Below are positions 1,810 to 10,750 of a stretch of 25,167 nt of DNA, piece after piece. The DNA lies in the IMG/VR virus record IMGVR_UViG_3300047678_000277, positions 1 to 25,167 of that record, one strand, 5' to 3'. The position numbers and the translations under genes were made by a program. Under the pieces are notes generated by a model that did not search any database, had not been told where the DNA came from, and worked only from the letters and a program-made list of their open reading frames with translations. The stretch's first letter is position 1; every line of letters starts with the position of its first letter. This DNA is from a virus.

Positions 1810-3156
1810 GTGTCGGCGATATCCGCCCTGGAGAACTCATCCGTGATTGCACCCGTCCCGTTGCAAGAGTCGCCAAGAATGCGACTCGAATTGAATTTGA
1901 CCGCGTCACCGGAGCTGATGGAGTGCCTGCGGATGCTGATTTCAACGACGATGACCGCCGACAGTTCGCAGATGTTGCAGTGCTCATTTACCTGGCCGCA
2001 GTTGCCGGACGAATTCGAGCCCATCGAGCGGCTGCCGGTGGCAAACAGCCGATCGGAGAAAACATTCCTGTCCCTCTTCTTATCGGAGATTCTGCCGAGT
2101 CTGGAAATCGAGGACAAGGCGTCGACGATCAGCGGATACCGCACGGCCGTCAAGCACTTTTGCGACTGGTTCGACGGGCTCAAAACACCCCGCGAAATGG
2201 AGCCGAATTCGACGTGCGCAAAAAACAACCGTCGGTCTCGGGGACCGACGGTTATGGATTTGGAAAAACACCCGACATTGCTGGCCAAATTCTACGTATT
2301 TTCCCTGAAGAATGGCGGTGTGAAGACGGCTTCGAACAAGATCAAAAGTCTGCGCACGATCTGGCGCAGAATGTTCGCCGCCGGACACATCAAAAAGCCA
2401 CTTCCAGAAATGCGATCGCGCCTCATTCGCAAGCAACAGAAAATCGAAACGGTCAAACAAGTCCCGATGCCGGCCAGCAACGAAGAAATCGACCGACTGC
2501 TGACGGCAGCCATCGAGATTCGCGACACACTGACCTGGCCGAATGTCGACGACCTGGAGCCGTTTCAGTTCTGGTGGAACGTGATCGCGATCTGCACCGT
2601 TCACGGTTTCCGGCCAGGCGACATCTGGCCCCGCGAATCCAGGAGTGGCCTGGGCTTGCTGTGGTCCGAAGTTTTCCGCAGCCCGTCGCCGCCGCTGGCA
2701 GGCGGCAATCAGTTGCAGGCCAATTGGGAATTCGGCTGGATCAAAAAGCGCACGAACAAAACCGGCGAAACGCTGATTGCGCCGATGAGTCCGCACCTGC
2801 GCTGGCTGGTCGATCAGTGCGACGGTCTCGACAAGGCTCGCGTGTTTCCGCTTCCCTACAACGGAAAGTTCTGGGATCGGGAGTTCGGCAGGATCCGGAC
2901 GCAGGCGAATTTGCCGCACGTCTCGCTCTGCGACGGCGCTCCGTCGCATTCGCTCCGAAAAACTGCCGCCACCAAATGGAAGCGCGCCGTCAATCGCGCC
3001 GCTTCGAGTCACATGATGTGTCACGCCATCGACGCGAGCGAAGACCAGGCCAGCGACATCACCGAGCGTCACTACAGCGGAGCCGACATTCTCCGCGAGA
3101 TCGTCGCCGGCTTCCCGACGCTGCTGGCAGACCTGCCAGCCAGCATTCGCTGCTGA
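1810..3156 (+). CDS. int: Tyrosine-family site-specific recombinase (phage integrase)
   Basis: The product has 448 residues. The N-terminal core-binding part runs from about residue 83 to 195 (TISGYRTAVKHFCDWF). The catalytic domain shows Arg268 in GFRPGD, a lysine around 313-317, the His-x-x-Arg box at His380/Arg383 (HSLRK), His405, and Tyr422 in TERHY as the likely nucleophile. These are the conserved residues of tyrosine recombinases that join attP and attB. The gap His405-Tyr422 is longer than the usual nine or so residues. The frame opens with GTG at 1810 directly after an in-frame TGA; ATG 1879 (residue 24), with AAGAG upstream, is an alternative start. The tRNA 3' fragment at 272-313 is a plausible substrate. 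A 16-bp palindrome follows 6 bases after the stop. Confidence 0.93.
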   Translation: MSAISALENSSVIAPVPLQESPRMRLELNLTASPELMECLRMLISTTMTADSSQMLQCSFTWPQLPDEFEPIERLPVANSRSEKTFLSLFLSEILPSLEIEDKASTISGYRTAVKHFCDWFDGLKTPREMEPNSTCAKNNRRSRGPTVMDLEKHPTLLAKFYVFSLKNGGVKTASNKIKSLRTIWRRMFAAGHIKKPLPEMRSRLIRKQQKIETVKQVPMPASNEEIDRLLTAAIEIRDTLTWPNVDDLEPFQFWWNVIAICTVHGFRPGDIWPRESRSGLGLLWSEVFRSPSPPLAGGNQLQANWEFGWIKKRTNKTGETLIAPMSPHLRWLVDQCDGLDKARVFPLPYNGKFWDREFGRIRTQANLPHVSLCDGAPSHSLRKTAATKWKRAVNRAASSHMMCHAIDASEDQASDITERHYSGADILREIVAGFPTLLADLPASIRC

Positions 3157-3619: not shown

Positions 3620-3826
3620 ATGTTGGTGCTCTCAAGACAAACCAGCGAATCGCTGACATTCTTCGTACGCGGCGTGACGTTCGAAGTCACCGTCAAAGAA
3701 ATTCGCGGAAACAAGGTGCGGCTGTCGACCGACGCGAACCCGGCAGACGTGCGAGTCGTACGTTCGGAGCTGTTTCTTCCGGCACCGCAGTTTTCAGCGG
3801 CTGATGCCTCTACTTTGAAAGGCTGA
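3620..3826 (+). CDS. csrA: CsrA/RsmA-like RNA-binding translational regulator
   Basis: The product has 68 residues, the normal CsrA length. It begins MLVLSR like almost all members, has GNKVRL at 30-35 (E. coli CsrA has GNQVRI), and VRVVRSEL at 44-51, placing Arg48 at the site of the RNA-binding Arg44; Arg6 and Leu4 are also kept. The usual GE.I.IGD turn is replaced by TSESLTFFVRGV and the usual proline after the alanine is shifted, so this is a divergent member. CsrA dimers bind GGA motifs near ribosome binding sites and change translation or mRNA stability. An AAAAAAGGAA binding site precedes the ATG and itself contains GGA, so autoregulation is plausible. The next gene starts 3 bases after the stop. 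Confidence 0.85.
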   Translation: MLVLSRQTSESLTFFVRGVTFEVTVKEIRGNKVRLSTDANPADVRVVRSELFLPAPQFSAADASTLKG

Positions 3827-3829
3827 CTG

Positions 3830-4069
3830 ATGCTGACTGCCCATCTTTGCGGCGACAAGCTGATGATTTCTGACAGCGACAAGCTGATCGCGAAACTGCC
3901 AGCGATCATGCTCAAGCGTTCCGGTGTGGAGCGTCTCTCGCTGGAGCTGGATACGCTCAACCGCGACGGCCGCCAGAAATCGCTCGACCTGTACCTGCGC
4001 GGCCTGGTCTCAGCGATCCGACTCCTGGAACCCGGCGGCATTGTCTCGCAACCGGAGGGCGAGCTGTGA
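3830..4069 (+). CDS. Small hypothetical protein, co-transcribed with csrA-like gene
   Basis: The product has 79 residues, soluble and predicted mainly helical, with many charged residues and leucines (RSGVERLSLELDTLNRDGRQ). Its start is 3 bases after the CsrA-like stop, and its stop overlaps the next start by 4 bases (a GTGA-type junction, 4066-4069), so the three genes are translationally coupled. The family is not recognised. The tight coupling suggests a function with CsrA or with the replication-like protein that follows. Confidence 0.65.
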   Translation: MLTAHLCGDKLMISDSDKLIAKLPAIMLKRSGVERLSLELDTLNRDGRQKSLDLYLRGLVSAIRLLEPGGIVSQPEGEL

Positions 4070-5298
4070 TTCCTGAAGACACCAGCGAAATCAGAATCCC
4101 GATCGGCAAGGAACTCGTCGATCTCAGCACGGAATTCGTTATATCAAACCCAAACAATGACCCGCTGCGAATCGATTGCCGATCTGCAGTTGTAAGGTTC
4201 AGAGATCACGGAAGACCGGACATGAAGTCAAACCAAAAAACTTTCGATTTTGACATCGCAACACTCAATCACTGCATTTCGAGAATCGTTCCTAAACGCA
4301 AACGGACGGTCTTTCGCGGCCTGCTGTTCGCAGCCGCGAACGAGCCGCGTCTAGTCGATGCCATTGACGAGCAGGGATTTATTCTGATGACGGTCTCGAT
4401 CGACAAGGTTGCCGCCTGGGCGAGCGTTACGCCGCGAGCCATCCGAATCAACGTCGATCGAGTCCGCGCTGAAGAGCCTGGGATTCTGGAGCAATCCGCG
4501 ACCGTCAACACGGCTGCCGAATGGATGTTCCGCATCGGCTCTGTGATCCCGGAATCGGCGATTGCGTGGTTCATAGATCTGGTCGAAAACAGCAAAAGTT
4601 CACCCCGGACGTTTGAAAAGTTCAGGGTGAACTTTTCAAAAGTTCAGGGTGAACTTTCGACAGCGCGGGGTGAACTTTCGGCAGAAGTTCACCCCAAAGT
4701 TCAGGGTGAACTTTTAGACCTCTCTTCTAATAGCATGAAGCATGCTGTACATGCTAATAAAACACATGCTCAGCATGAGTCTTTGAAAAGTTCTTCGGAA
4801 TCGCAGTCGACGAAACCGAAATCCAGCGCGGTCAGTTTCCGAAACATCACCGCCGCACACGTCGACCAGATCGTGAAACGCAGGGACGTCGAATTGTTCG
4901 ATCGGTACTTCCGCGACCTGGTCAAAAAAGAATGGGCTCGCACCGACGATTCCGACCGCGACCGCCAGCGATTGGCCGCATTGTTCCACCAGGTTGCGAG
5001 AGTTGACGAAGCCGATTGTCCTGGCAGCGTGATCTATGCTGCGTGGAAATCCCGCGACGTGATGGGCGAAGATTCCGCCGGGAAACCGCTGGGACTGCGA
5101 TTGTCGGACGACGACGAAGATTTTGCCCGCGAACTGCTGCGAGTTCGCAGCGATCCGGCCCGGTCGGCAGCCGCTCCGATGCTGAAGCCGAGCGTCAGTG
5201 AGTCGCTGACACCGGAGCAGCTCCGCAAACAGGCGGAGATTCGCGAAAGTTACCTCAAGCAAGTGGCTGTGATGCAGCGGAATGCAGCGCCGCACTAA
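4066..5298 (+). CDS. Probable phage replication initiator (lambda O-like organisation)
   Basis: The product has 410 residues. Residues about 100-140 look like a winged or plain helix-turn-helix (SIDKVAAWASVTPRAIRINV). Residues 177-217 are a repetitive low-complexity linker (FSKVQGELS, ARGELS, PKVQGELL) because the DNA there is a cluster of inverted repeats. The C-terminal part from about 265 is a charged helical domain ending in EQLRKQAEIRESYLKQ. A DNA-binding N-terminus, a linker containing the repeats, and a C-terminal partner-binding domain is the layout of lambda O-type initiators, whose binding sites lie inside their own gene. I see no ATPase or helicase motifs, so a helicase must come from the host or elsewhere. 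The start GTG overlaps the previous gene by 4 bases. The assignment rests on organisation, not on a recognised family signature. Confidence 0.6.
   Translation: MIPEDTSEIRIPIGKELVDLSTEFVISNPNNDPLRIDCRSAVVRFRDHGRPDMKSNQKTFDFDIATLNHCISRIVPKRKRTVFRGLLFAAANEPRLVDAIDEQGFILMTVSIDKVAAWASVTPRAIRINVDRVRAEEPGILEQSATVNTAAEWMFRIGSVIPESAIAWFIDLVENSKSSPRTFEKFRVNFSKVQGELSTARGELSAEVHPKVQGELLDLSSNSMKHAVHANKTHAQHESLKSSSESQSTKPKSSAVSFRNITAAHVDQIVKRRDVELFDRYFRDLVKKEWARTDDSDRDRQRLAALFHQVARVDEADCPGSVIYAAWKSRDVMGEDSAGKPLGLRLSDDDEDFARELLRVRSDPARSAAAPMLKPSVSESLTPEQLRKQAEIRESYLKQVAVMQRNAAPH
4594..4715. repeat. Iteron-like repeat cluster: candidate replication origin
   Basis: Nine copies of the half-site AAGTTCA (or its complement TGAACTT) occur in 122 bases. 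They are arranged as a single site at 4594-4606, a palindrome 4615-4637 with 10-bp arms (GAAAAGTTCA/TGAACTTTTC around GGG), a second palindrome 4638-4657, an 11-bp inverted pair 4667-4677/4685-4695 (GGGGTGAACTT/AAGTTCACCCC), and a palindrome 4696-4715. All lie within the coding sequence of the initiator-like gene and an A/T-richer stretch follows, as in lambdoid origins. Confidence 0.75.
4732..4777. repeat. CATGCT/AGCATG repeats in A/T-rich stretch beside the iterons
   Basis: Five sites occur: AGCATG (4732), AGCATGCT (4739), CATGCT (4750), CATGCT (4765) and AGCATG (4772); the last two form the palindrome CATGCT-C-AGCATG. They sit in an A/T-rich stretch directly after the AAGTTCA cluster, where an origin unwinding region would be expected. 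A further GAAAAGTTC is at about 4784-4792. Confidence 0.6.
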
Positions 5299-5367: not shown

Positions 5368-7488
5368 ATGACCAACGTCAAAAACTCAAACGTCGCCACC
5401 CGCAACACGAAAGCGGCCGCCGCTCGCACGACCACCAAAACGCGCAACGAGCTCACCGTTGAGCTGGAAAAGATCATTGAGCCTTTCGGCTGGACCGTCT
5501 ATGGCCACGCAGCCTCTCACCTGCAGGCCGCGGAGCTCGACGCGATGTCGACGTGGCTGGATGAGGCCTGGACGAAAACGCCGCTGGTCGTCTGGTCGCT
5601 CATCGTCATCCCCGACGCGCAGTTGTTCGGAGCTCGCAAAAACAAAAATGACGCGATGGCGATCGTGTCGACGATCCTCACCCATCGCGGCGAGTTTGCG
5701 GCGAATCCGGAAGATCCGGTCGCGCGACTGATCGACAGCATCAACGAGTCCGGCTACTGCGAAACCCGCTTTGGCGGTCTGTTTCTGGGAACCGAACCAG
5801 AGCTGCGAATCTGGTTCGGCCGCAAAGCCGGCAAGCCACCCGACCTGTCCGGCGACGAAGCTCGCGTCGCGATTCAGCGGCTGTTCAATGTCGCCATCAC
5901 CGCTCCGCGTGATGAGCCCAAATGGCCACCCGCTGCGAGCGTCTCCGGGCCGAAGAAATCCAAACGTGGGCCCCAAACTTCCGGCGAGCGGAAGGACGTA
6001 AGTCCTCCGATGACTGTCGATCCGGCCACCGGCAAGACGATGCAGCAAATCGATATCGGTCTGATCGTTCCCGACGAAGCCAACCGATTAATCGACAAAG
6101 CGTCGATCCTGCAACTGGCCGCGAACATTCGCGAAATCGGTCTGCTGCAACCGATCACAGTGCGACCGATCGCAGACACCAGCCCGCAGCGGTACATGAT
6201 CACAGCCGGAGAACGACGCTGGCGAGCCTGCTGCGAAGCGGGCTTCAAAACGATTCCGGCGATCATCCGCGAGACCGCCGGAGAAGCAACGGCCGTCAGT
6301 CGCATTTCCGAAAACGTGCATCGGGAAAACCTGACACCGAGTGAACTGGCAACGGAGTACTCCAGGCTTCTGCAGTCGGGAATGACTCAAAAGAAAATCG
6401 GCGAGCTGTTCGACGGCATCAGCCAGGGACAAGTCAGCAATACGATTCGGTTGCTGGAACTGCCGGCTGGCATCCTGAAACACGTTGACGCCCGCATTGT
6501 CGCACCGACGCTGATTCGTGACGTGCTGTCCTACAGCGATTTGCCGCCGCTAATGGACGCCGTTGAAAAGATGATCGCAACGCGAATAAAAAGCGATCTG
6601 CCGATCGAACAAACCAGCCTGCAGGAATGCTTGAAGAACGCGATCCGAACGCACAGCCGATCGATGTCGTACGATTCTGGCTGGAGCAGCTACGCGCCTC
6701 CGGATCCGAAAAAGCGACATTTCAAAACGCTGAGCGACGAGGATCGAAAAGCGCTGGCACCGCGAAATTTCAAAGACCTGATGAACACATGGGGAGATCA
6801 GGAACGCACGTTCAATGTAAAACTGTTCGGCGAGCTCAACACAAAGCCGCTGGCCGACCGCAGAAAGAAGCACGGTGAGTACAAAGCGAAAACTCACCGC
6901 TCGCAGGCCTCCGACAAGTCGCAAAAGAAAGTGGTCAGCTACTTCGACAATGAACGCCGCGTTGCCAACGAGATTGCAGACTCGCTGGCGATAGGCCTGG
7001 CCGACGTCATTGCAAAGCACAAGGATCGTGCGACGGTATACCGCATCGTTCTGGCGATCGCATTCACATCAGACGGAGCGATCGGCGATGCGATACTAGG
7101 CCAGCGGCGGTGGGATCCGGACGAAGTCTGCAAAATGTTCGACAAACTGGATGGAACTCCGAAACAGATCGAAGACACGATCCGAACCGCTGTCGTCGAG
7201 CTGCTGCAATCCGCCGATCGGCCGCAAATCGCGATCGATTCCGTGCTGCATTTGGCGAGTCTGCTGAATGCCGATTTGCTGGCAGCCTGGAAACCGCCGA
7301 TCGACGTGCTGAATGAACTCACCGACGCAGGACGCGAGGTCTGCCGGACCGACCTGCAGGCAGCAGACGCCGAAAAGGCAACACTGCTGAACTGCTGGCC
7401 AGCAGGCTACATGCCGGAATTTCTGCGAGAAATCGTGCAGCCGAAACCAGTCAAAGCGACGAAACTGAAGAAAGGCAAGGCCGCGTGA
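5368..7488 (+). CDS. Large ParB-like protein with extra N- and C-terminal domains
   Basis: The product has 706 residues, more than twice a normal ParB. The ParB core starts near residue 228: ASILQLAANIREIGLLQPIT (245-264), the CTP-binding GERRWRA box (281-287), ENVHRENLTPSEL (315-327) and a helix-turn-helix (about 339-362, TQKKIGELFDGISQGQVSNT). Proteins of this family clamp on DNA at parS-like sites using CTP and act in partition or transcription control. Residues 1-225 are an unrecognised domain plus a basic linker, and residues 400-706 are a long unknown C-terminal region. No ParA is visible nearby, so it may serve in plasmid-like phage maintenance with a distant ParA, in regulation, or in replication. 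It ends the early operon, only 8 bp from the converging late operon. A CATTTCGATCGAAATG palindrome lies 50 bases upstream. Confidence 0.85.
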   Translation: MTNVKNSNVATRNTKAAAARTTTKTRNELTVELEKIIEPFGWTVYGHAASHLQAAELDAMSTWLDEAWTKTPLVVWSLIVIPDAQLFGARKNKNDAMAIVSTILTHRGEFAANPEDPVARLIDSINESGYCETRFGGLFLGTEPELRIWFGRKAGKPPDLSGDEARVAIQRLFNVAITAPRDEPKWPPAASVSGPKKSKRGPQTSGERKDVSPPMTVDPATGKTMQQIDIGLIVPDEANRLIDKASILQLAANIREIGLLQPITVRPIADTSPQRYMITAGERRWRACCEAGFKTIPAIIRETAGEATAVSRISENVHRENLTPSELATEYSRLLQSGMTQKKIGELFDGISQGQVSNTIRLLELPAGILKHVDARIVAPTLIRDVLSYSDLPPLMDAVEKMIATRIKSDLPIEQTSLQECLKNAIRTHSRSMSYDSGWSSYAPPDPKKRHFKTLSDEDRKALAPRNFKDLMNTWGDQERTFNVKLFGELNTKPLADRRKKHGEYKAKTHRSQASDKSQKKVVSYFDNERRVANEIADSLAIGLADVIAKHKDRATVYRIVLAIAFTSDGAIGDAILGQRRWDPDEVCKMFDKLDGTPKQIEDTIRTAVVELLQSADRPQIAIDSVLHLASLLNADLLAAWKPPIDVLNELTDAGREVCRTDLQAADAEKATLLNCWPAGYMPEFLREIVQPKPVKATKLKKGKAA

Positions 7489-8130: not shown

Positions 8131-9675
8131 TCAGACGTCAGCACGTTCCACGCGCAGAGCACCGCCAAGCTCGACCACCAATTTGCCTAGCGACGTCGTA
8201 CGCTGGATCTGGTACCGGTAGTCGTCGGCGATCGGCAGCGTACCGGGAATGAGGTTCCGGGGTATTTCGATCGAAATCGATGTGACATCGTCCGCATAAG
8301 TGACGCTCGAAATGGTTCCGGTAATCAGCACTTCATTTCCGCGACGCGCGCCGAACTGCAGCGACGCCGCCAGTGTGGCGGATTGCAGCCTGGCCGCCAG
8401 TGCTCCGCCAACATCAGCGACCGATCGGACAAGCCCATTCTCGGCGGCCGTGACGTAATCTTTGCCGACGATCAACGTGATGGCACCGGCTGGAGTCACT
8501 GATCCGGCGACCGAAAGACCAGCCCCGTTGATCTTCTGTGCGGCCGCCCAGGTTTCATTCAGCTTCGTTTCCTGCTCCGTTGTGAGACCACCGCCGCCGC
8601 CACCTTCCCAAGAATCCTCCCCGTGTGCCGCCGAAAGCACTTCATCGACTTTCGCCGCTATTGTCTCGCGCCCCGCGGAGTCTAGTTCCACTGCCCCAGC
8701 GGCAGACACGCGGAGTCGATTTGCGAGATCATCAGCATGGAATAAACCGGCTCGAATATCTGCGACGGAAGGCGCAGAGCCACCACCACCGCCAGCCCCC
8801 TGCGCGAGATTCGCCACCGAGCCTGTGGCTGCTGTCGTCTGACCAGTGTTGACGGTCGCGAAGCGAGCCAGCGCAGTGGAGCTGATCGCATCCAATGCCG
8901 CCGTCACCTGCGCCGGAGTCGCACGCGAGCTCATCAGAACGTCAAGATTCTGCAGCAGCTTTCCGACCGTGCCGGCCGTATCGTGATTACCGGCGAGAAG
9001 GCGATTTAGGACGGCATCCCGAACGGCGACAGCGATTGCCGCGACCGAAACGTCGGCACCGTCGAGATCGGTTTCGATTCTCGCAATGATCGAATCGACG
9101 AGAGCCGCCGTGTCCGTGTCCGAGAACAACGCCGCGAGAACCGCCGAAGTCAAAGACATTTCCGACCCGACGATCGCAAGCCCCGTCGCGGAACCGGCCG
9201 CAACGTCGGGAATTCTATCAACACGAGAAAGCCGACCCACCGTCAACTTACCATCAGCCGACTCGGACGCCGTTCTCGCCGCCGCGATTCCGGCGTTATC
9301 GGGAACCGTAGTATTAGCCGCAAAAGCTGCCGTATGACGATCAGCCGTCACCACCAGCCAATCGAAATGCACGTCGATCGCGCCAGTAACCGACAGCACA
9401 GCAGAGACGGCACCGAGTGACGCAAACAGAGCGTTCGGCACATGCCACGCATACTTCCCTATTCCGAGAGGCACGATCTTCCCGCTCGTGTATGCATCGC
9501 CTGGCGAACCGGACGAGAATGAAAGGCTGGTCTCAGTCCCACCGGCAATATTGTACTTTCCGCTAAAGTCAGAATGGACCTTTCCCGTAAGCCCTTGGCC
9601 AGTCGTAGACGATCGCAGCATGAAATGCCGGATGCGACTGGTGACGTTTTGCGGAATTAGGATGTCGCCGGGCAT
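8131..9675 (-). CDS. Tail fibre-like structural protein
   Basis: The product has 514 residues. The N-terminal 115 residues are beta-rich (DFSGKYNIAGGTETSLSF, PLGIGKYAWHVPNALF), as in base-plate attached fibre heads. The middle (about 130-370) is alanine- and aspartate-rich and helical, probably a trimeric stalk, interrupted by glycine hinges GAGGGGGSAPSVADI and EGGGGGGLTTEQETKL. The C-terminal 90 residues are beta-rich again. The motif DIRAGLFHADDLANRL occurs in the stalk. It starts one base after the previous stop and ends 10 bases before the glycosyltransferase-like gene. It is likely to recognise the host or link to a receptor-binding tip. Family not certain. Confidence 0.65.
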   Translation of the reverse strand: MPGDILIPQNVTSRIRHFMLRSSTTGQGLTGKVHSDFSGKYNIAGGTETSLSFSSGSPGDAYTSGKIVPLGIGKYAWHVPNALFASLGAVSAVLSVTGAIDVHFDWLVVTADRHTAAFAANTTVPDNAGIAAARTASESADGKLTVGRLSRVDRIPDVAAGSATGLAIVGSEMSLTSAVLAALFSDTDTAALVDSIIARIETDLDGADVSVAAIAVAVRDAVLNRLLAGNHDTAGTVGKLLQNLDVLMSSRATPAQVTAALDAISSTALARFATVNTGQTTAATGSVANLAQGAGGGGGSAPSVADIRAGLFHADDLANRLRVSAAGAVELDSAGRETIAAKVDEVLSAAHGEDSWEGGGGGGLTTEQETKLNETWAAAQKINGAGLSVAGSVTPAGAITLIVGKDYVTAAENGLVRSVADVGGALAARLQSATLAASLQFGARRGNEVLITGTISSVTYADDVTSISIEIPRNLIPGTLPIADDYRYQIQRTTSLGKLVVELGGALRVERADV

Positions 9676-9676
9676 T

Positions 9677-10750
9677 TTATTCCTCCATCACAATAACGTT
9701 ACCACCACCCGACGCAACGTCTACGACGCGAAACTGAAACGGGATATACAAGACGTTTGAGCCAAACGTCCATGAGCCACCGCCGTTGCGAGTAGCGGAC
9801 GACAAATTGAAATACCCCATACACTCACCGCACGCCGATGACGGTATAATCATTTCTATCGAGGAAAAGTTTTCACCTGAAACAAGTGGCTTTACCGCCA
9901 AGATATAGGTGTTACCAGCAGTCAGGATTACGCGGTCACTCAACACGAAAGAGCAAGGGTAGGTGTTAGTAACTCTGGTCGCCGAAGCATCTATTGTTGT
10001 TGTCGAGATAAGAGTTCCGTTTTCGTAAATAAGTATATTAAAGTCCGCATTTCTGGGATTCGTTGCGTTGATACTTGCAAGCATGTTGACGCCGTCAACG
10101 GTCATCGTAACCGGAACAGTGAATTGACACCCGCGTTCATCTGGATTAGTCGCAGCATTCCATGTCCGCGTAGTCTGTGACCCCCAAAACCAGCCACCAT
10201 GCGATAGCGTTCCAACAGTCCCATCTGTACAGATCAAAGCCACGCTCGAATGGATGTTACCACCCGTCCAGACTCCGGCAGTTTGTTTCGAGATTCCTGA
10301 AGTTGTACCAACCGACATTGGAATCGCCGAAGCTTGAAAATTGTCAGAACCTAACCTACCGGCACCGTCGTATTCTACCACCACTGCAAGCCATTCGCCG
10401 TTCACTATGGAACGGTTTGCACTTAACGCATTTGTAATCGTGAATGAGTTCGTAGCATACGCGGAATTCGCTATTGCTACAGTCTGATCCTGAACACCGT
10501 CAGGAATCGGGACTGTAGTCGACGTCAGGTCAACATCCTGCAACGAGACAGTAAGAGCACTTCCGCCGTTTTTAGTAACTGTTCCAAAACGAAATCCAAC
10601 ACGTTCGATTGATTTTCCAGACGATGCAAGTGGATGTTGAACTTGCCCAATAAAAGCGATCTTGTCGCCGGTAGCGTTGACGGAGGACGAGACGGTAGCT
10701 GAGCTAATATTTGGAATAACGCTCGGCCAATATGAGATAATTCCAGCCAT
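9677..10750 (-). CDS. Tail surface protein with atypical low G+C, probable host-recognition protein
   Basis: The product has 357 residues, rich in Ser, Thr, Asn and Gly with alternating beta-strands (FTITNALSANRSIVNGEWLA, NTYILAVKP). There is no signal or membrane span. The repeated beta-sandwich look and the position between other tail proteins suggest a receptor-binding or fibre-tip protein. Its base composition is clearly lower in G+C than its neighbours: 22 to 30 of 60 bases in lines I counted here against about 36 of 60 in the tape measure gene. Codons such as AAT, AAA and ATA are common. This points to recent exchange, as is usual for host-range genes. Family not recognised. Confidence 0.6.
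   Translation of the reverse strand: MAGIISYWPSVIPNISSATVSSSVNATGDKIAFIGQVQHPLASSGKSIERVGFRFGTVTKNGGSALTVSLQDVDLTSTTVPIPDGVQDQTVAIANSAYATNSFTITNALSANRSIVNGEWLAVVVEYDGAGRLGSDNFQASAIPMSVGTTSGISKQTAGVWTGGNIHSSVALICTDGTVGTLSHGGWFWGSQTTRTWNAATNPDERGCQFTVPVTMTVDGVNMLASINATNPRNADFNILIYENGTLISTTTIDASATRVTNTYPCSFVLSDRVILTAGNTYILAVKPLVSGENFSSIEMIIPSSACGECMGYFNLSSATRNGGGSWTFGSNVLYIPFQFRVVDVASGGGNVIVMEE

Follow-up and report, generated by a model that had tools for sequence, protein, structure and literature searches.

A candidate lambda-O-like replication origin inside the gene of a putative, very divergent winged-helix initiator

Introduction

What is the role of a dense cluster of inverted repeats inside the coding sequence of a phage protein? 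A 25,167-base fragment of a virus record—the whole stretch of DNA analyzed here, referred to as the window—raises this question by a 410-codon gene (Table 1). We propose that its product is an origin-binding replication initiator made of an N-domain, a DNA-encoded linker and a C-domain, and consider it quite likely that this is a strongly diverged winged-helix initiator whose gene harbors, at positions 4596 to 4780, a lambda-O-like origin with iterons and an unwinding element.

The window carries a tRNA-Trp gene, a tyrosine-integrase-like gene, a CsrA-like gene, a 79-codon ORF, the 410-codon gene and a ParB-like gene; tail and capsid genes lie on the other strand. The 410-codon gene begins with GTG at 4066, overlapping the stop codon of the ORF before it. 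The tRNA-Trp (1188–1263) and the subsequent distant tyrosine-integrase-like gene (1810–3156) likely mark a prophage attachment site. The CsrA-like protein (3620–3826, 68 amino acids) is encoded two genes upstream of the initiator gene in the phage early region, and positions 5368–7488 directly downstream encode a 706-amino-acid protein with ParB_N and HTH_ParB domains.

The 410-amino-acid protein has no match in Pfam, PHROG, NCBIfam or PDB and no relatives by direct homology in viral contigs, genome contigs or phages, the latter including a tblastn search with E-values up to 10; its C-domain matches nothing in these searches either. The ParB-like and integrase neighbors as queries gave no relatives, and the capsid gene gave two distant ones. 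No helicase loader was recognized near the gene.

Table 1. Features of the 410-codon gene and of the repeats it contains
Feature	Positions	Strand	Basis
410-amino-acid protein, GTG start	4066–5298	+	ORF; initiator role inferred from repeats and profile alignment
Predicted winged-helix DNA-binding domain, recognition helix S-V-T-P-R-A-I-R-I-N	4231–4560	+	profile alignment and guided model
Iteron array, nine AAGTTCA/TGAACTT half-sites	4596–4713	.	motif counts
Palindrome AAGTTCAGGGTGAACTT, copy 1	4618–4634	.	palindrome search
Palindrome AAGTTCAGGGTGAACTT, copy 2, 22 bp past copy 1	4640–4656	.	palindrome search
Palindrome AAGTTCAGGGTGAACTT, copy 3	4697–4713	.	palindrome search
11-bp inverted pair GGGGTGAACTT ... 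AAGTTCACCCC	4667–4695	.	inverted-repeat search
A/T-rich stretch with six CATGCT/AGCATG sites	4716–4780	.	composition and motif count

A repeat array constrained as DNA

The initial annotation had described nine half-sites within 122 bases of the 410-residue coding sequence, three full palindromes and one 11-bp inverted pair among them. All of these elements are present and embedded in the ORF, with a measured span of 118 bases. AAGTTCA starts at 4596, 4618, 4640, 4685 and 4697, and TGAACTT at 4628, 4650, 4671 and 4707. The array thereby holds nine of the 13 such half-sites of the whole window, for which shuffles of the window give a mean of 3.2 and a maximum of 7. Six of the nine pair up as three exact palindromes, which face outward (AAGTTCA-GGG-TGAACTT); a palindrome search allowing up to two mismatches finds four matches, a number reached in 0 of 100 shuffles. 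The arms of the inverted pair (4667–4677 and 4685–4695) are 100% complementary. Adjacent half-sites are spaced by 10–14 or 21–22 bases—about one or two helical turns. Within six of the nine lies the perfect heptamer GGTGAAC/GTTCACC (4598, 4626, 4648, 4669, 4687 and 4705); the linker contains six GTTCAC/GTGAAC hexamers at 4598–4711.

When synonymous codons were shuffled with the protein kept (20,000 shuffles), on average 0.98 half-sites remained, at most five, and none of the shuffles reached nine. In addition, each of the three frames of the gene contains AAGTTCA. Hence, the constraint acts on the DNA, and the linker SKSSPRTFEKFRVNFSKVQGELSTARGELSAEVHPKVQGELL is a by-product of it; the earlier view that the linker is of low complexity owing to constrained DNA is borne out. 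The gene thereby agrees with what the lambda and SPP1 layout calls for, a repeat cluster in coding sequence under constraint as DNA.

The same word in the linkers of other phage initiators

As protein families and homology are silent on the 410-amino-acid protein, the search was run with the DNA repeat, scanning 2.9 million viral contigs with repeat patterns. The unit GGGTGAACTTT occurs twice within 30 bases in 12 of them. About half of these 12 encode winged-helix initiators with the unit inside the linker region or at its end: contigs L015, L016/L018, L017 and L023 have it in the linker of small proteins that mostly show a clear helix-turn-helix at the N-terminus, and L024 has it just beyond the end of such a helix-turn-helix frame. 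In the latter contig (3464–3720), the winged-helix frame ends just before AAAGTTCACCC repeats, which might reflect a frameshift, an assembly error or a split gene. In the remaining contigs, the setting of the array is unclear or the unit falls in a large structural gene. L014 (1730–1779), L021 (218–400), L022 (5275–5460) and L020 (3755–3890) have arrays with as many as nine GTGGGAAAAGTTCACCCCTCC units that adjoin structural genes, outside initiator linkers, and may be origins of another kind. In L007 (13150–13400), alternating TTGAAC/AAGTTCAA half-sites lie outside any long ORF.

In the initiator linkers, the sites are often arranged as GTGAAC-NNN-GTTCAC, i.e., facing inward. The doubled palindrome GTGAACNNNGTTCAC, twice within 30 bases, is found in 42 contigs, and the reversed-pattern control in one, a repetitive protein. 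By our own count, the 42 comprise 25 initiator linkers—several near-identical copies included—15 collagen-like Gly-x-Gln proteins and two others. All 20 iteron-carrying proteins tested from both scans match PHROG replication-initiation or DnaD-like families, and six of ten match HTH_36 (Pfam) at E < 0.01, of which four pass the curated cut-off. These proteins have little sequence in common, and the repeat is read in different frames (VNKVHP, GEQSSP, SEPGSP); hence, the word is kept as DNA. A scan with the outward form of the palindrome found no relative that carries it, and the outward palindrome plus a third half-site as query gave only chance or intergenic matches. Three copies of AGTTCACC as query returned 91 stretches, a good many of which were tandem or Ser-Ser-Pro repeats; this query was replaced by the palindrome with its reversed control.

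That the repeats are a meaningless expansion has hardly any probability left: linkers do tolerate repeats, and 15 of the 42 palindrome contigs encode collagen-like proteins, but copies in either orientation and in three frames are not what slippage of a coding repeat produces, and the hexamer is common to independent initiators. Action in the mRNA, either as hairpins for the CsrA-like protein or as a pausing signal, strikes us as very improbable. The palindromes would indeed form RNA hairpins, and the CsrA-like gene lies close by. However, CsrA prefers GGA in the loop, and the loop is GGG here; among the relatives, the hexamer is seen in both orientations and in varied arrangements, which suits DNA binding, and an mRNA role does not predict the association with initiators.

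The main rival, in our judgment unlikely, is a parS-like centromere for the ParB-like protein, by which a plasmid-like prophage would be partitioned. The domains of this protein speak for it, and the canonical parS, TGTTTCACGTGAAACA, is likewise a palindrome with TTCA/TGAA arms. Against it, the array contains no canonical parS within three mismatches, and the one match that the window does contain, at 9869, is no better than chance. The repeats sit in the linker of another gene rather than in the ParB-like gene, and elsewhere the hexamer goes with O-like initiators, ParB being encoded in only three of 18 hexamer contigs—several of which are fragments.

The A/T-rich stretch downstream of the array

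Directly after the array follows the A/T-rich stretch that the initial annotation had pointed out. It is 60% A+T (gene average 46%), a richness that only 1.6% of windows of equal length attain; within the first 60 bases past the array, A+T reaches 63%. The CATGCT/AGCATG sites in it number six rather than the five counted before (4732, 4739, 4741, 4750, 4765 and 4772; 20 in the window), those at 4739 and 4741 overlapping within AGCATGCT. We propose that 4716–4780 is the unwinding element, by analogy to the layout of lambda and SPP1 (PMC7466680, PMC6316719), in which an A/T-rich tract adjoins the repeats as it does here. Perhaps the stretch is also a second protein-binding site: the CATGCT/AGCATG sites between 4732 and 4777, AGCATGCT included, may bind a second factor.

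The same order recurs among the iteron relatives, 22 of 26 having A/T-rich DNA downstream of the iterons, i.e., 60 bases richer than the gene (P = 1e-5). The upstream side is A/T-richer as well, less strongly than the downstream side. For lambda, the corresponding values are 68% A+T downstream of the iterons versus 52%.

These features also bear on whether the array is not an origin but an operator, at which the 410-amino-acid protein or another regulator controls transcription of the operon. Dimeric regulators go well with palindromic sites, and many initiators also repress their own genes. Yet an array of nine sites that lies 530 bases into the coding sequence beside A/T-rich DNA fits an origin better, as does the association with replication-initiation families, which an operator does not predict; we therefore regard the operator as quite improbable. 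A GC-skew shift, suggested earlier as a check on the origin, is uninformative: the skew shows no turn at the array.

A predicted winged helix and its recognition helix

With a profile built from 34 O-like winged helices, the window ORF ranks first among all six-frame ORFs of the window. In this alignment, SIDKVAAWASVTPRAIRINVDR falls on the helix-turn-helix in the register to be expected, and SVTPRAIR on the recognition helix. The match is weak (hmmsearch E 0.34; hhalign P 0.0024 at a probability of only 12%; two of 2000 shuffles score as high) and is, as a sequence comparison, suggestive of a winged helix. Lambda O itself barely scores with this profile.

The predicted recognition helix of the window protein carries T-P-R-A-I. 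Of 25 iteron proteins, 22 have R as the third residue of the motif [ST]-x-R, versus three of 12 O-like relatives that were identified by protein and lack a hexamer cluster (Fisher P 0.0003), in sets that are not phylogenetically independent and with helix positions assigned by eye. The combination of GTTCAC/GTGAAC iterons in the linker with an [ST]-x-R helix—a subgroup trait seen here—is thus present in the window protein. O-like relatives without the hexamer cluster often carry other linker repeats. Examples within L155–L168 are ADSTGMP in S1249, NDPKIGI in GF-2 and GWGENHHGG in B40-8, as if every recognition helix had its own iteron.

A single-sequence structure model of the whole protein is poor (pLDDT 38.9). 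Guided by the alignment of iteron proteins, the model adopts a winged-helix topology with a core pLDDT of 76–87. Its best fold matches are the replication-initiator N-domains 4pql, 4pt7 and 5kbj (E 0.007–0.025), and it also matches a viral 'replication initiator protein' (E 0.002). Since the alignment steers the model, this counts as weak support. The earlier statement that the protein bears no known initiator signature hence holds at the level of databases and gives way at the level of alignment, where a winged helix with a matching recognition helix can be placed. A new initiator family, as also put forward earlier, is not established by this; it is more likely that the protein belongs, though highly diverged, to the known O-like winged-helix initiators.

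Proposed mechanism and implications

Binding, melting and helicase recruitment by the 410-amino-acid protein are what we infer from this arrangement. First, the N-terminal winged helix would bind the GGTGAAC/GTTCACC half-sites, whose 10–12 and 22 bp spacing would line these molecules up along the same side of the helix. The array might then fold into a nucleoprotein complex, which would strain and open the A/T-rich stretch directly downstream. Finally, the C-domain could recruit the host helicase, either directly or via a loader not seen in the fragment. The linker between the two domains would be free to vary and could, hence, carry the DNA sites. Against this reading count the weak profile match, a structure model steered by the very alignment it should test, the outward palindromes where the relatives have inward ones, the searches that found neither a close relative nor a recognizable helicase loader nearby, and a GC skew that does not turn at the array. 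Of the lambda-O-like phage origin claimed initially, the arrangement is retained—iterons followed by A/T-rich DNA—and gains the hexamer in the linkers of recognized initiators, while origin activity is a prediction.

The layout is known and the 410-amino-acid protein is new. Possibly new is also that one iteron core is common to unrelated phages; a search of the open-access literature found no report of a shared GTTCAC/GTGAAC iteron core. We see an even chance that the GTGAAC/GTTCAC core is common to initiators of differing phages and read by a helix of the form [ST]-x-R-[GAS]-[VIL], with the window protein as an outlying member bearing outward palindromes. If so, the sequence of an origin could be predicted from the recognition helix. 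Once confirmed, such a core would make it directly testable how initiators recognize origins and why so many use one word, and would render origins readable from metagenomic phage sequence. With the layout being ordinary, the shared core and the candidate recognition rule are the part worth following. For the uncharacterized phage itself, the analysis provides a concrete candidate origin and initiator, and it indicates that an initiator without any matching protein family can still be identified by a DNA word in its linker.

Comparison with known systems

In ori-lambda and its equivalents in Stx phages, inverted-repeat iterons lie in the middle of the initiator gene O, followed by an A/T-rich unwinding tract (PMC7466680). 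As in the window, the iterons encode the linker of the initiator and the A/T-rich tract comes after them. The iteron differs (ATCCCTC...GAGGGA in lambda versus AAGTTCA...TGAACTT), with no lambda-type iterons in the array; the proteins share no detectable similarity, and no P-type loader gene is recognized next to the window gene. By sequence, the protein stands outside the lambda O family proper. N15 RepA and lambda O were considered as bearers of the core or the fold and dropped, N15 and lambda being without a hexamer cluster.

In SPP1, oriL lies within gene 38, and gp38 binds repeats there, beside an A/T-rich unwinding element (PMC6316719). The likeness is one of layout: repeats in the initiator's own gene next to A/T-rich DNA. 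Unlike in the window, the SPP1 repeats are described as direct, and the phage has a second origin and a separate loader, gp39.

Comparable as well are the initiators to which the iteron proteins belong, i.e., PHROG 678 and 391 ('O-like'), PHROG 270, 428 and 1032 ('replication initiation protein') and Pfam HTH_36, found on contigs L015, L017, L040, L110, L118, L125, L127, L134, L136, L143, L150 and others. They share with the window protein the GTTCAC/GTGAAC linker repeats and the A/T-rich DNA downstream, and their N-terminal winged helix with its [ST]-x-R recognition helix has a predicted counterpart in it. The window protein differs by its outward palindromes, by a C-domain without match and by the lack of a family match, including to the profiles of PHROG 678, 391, 270 and 428 and of HTH_36.

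The satellite phage P4 (L153) shares the core in another setting. Its ori/crr type I repeats (4314–4405 and 9310–9413), bound by the alpha protein, are annotated as GTTCACC, which equals the core of the window half-site. Unlike in the window, these repeats lie outside the gene, and alpha is a primase-helicase. As a candidate bearer of an O-like winged helix, alpha was rejected: the core is present, and no winged helix of this kind is recognizable. As nothing in alpha resembles the winged-helix profile, we treat the core match as unexplained. It may reflect convergence or a common code; if the shared core of the initiators is real, the P4 repeats would hint at a wider common code or at repeated convergence on one word.
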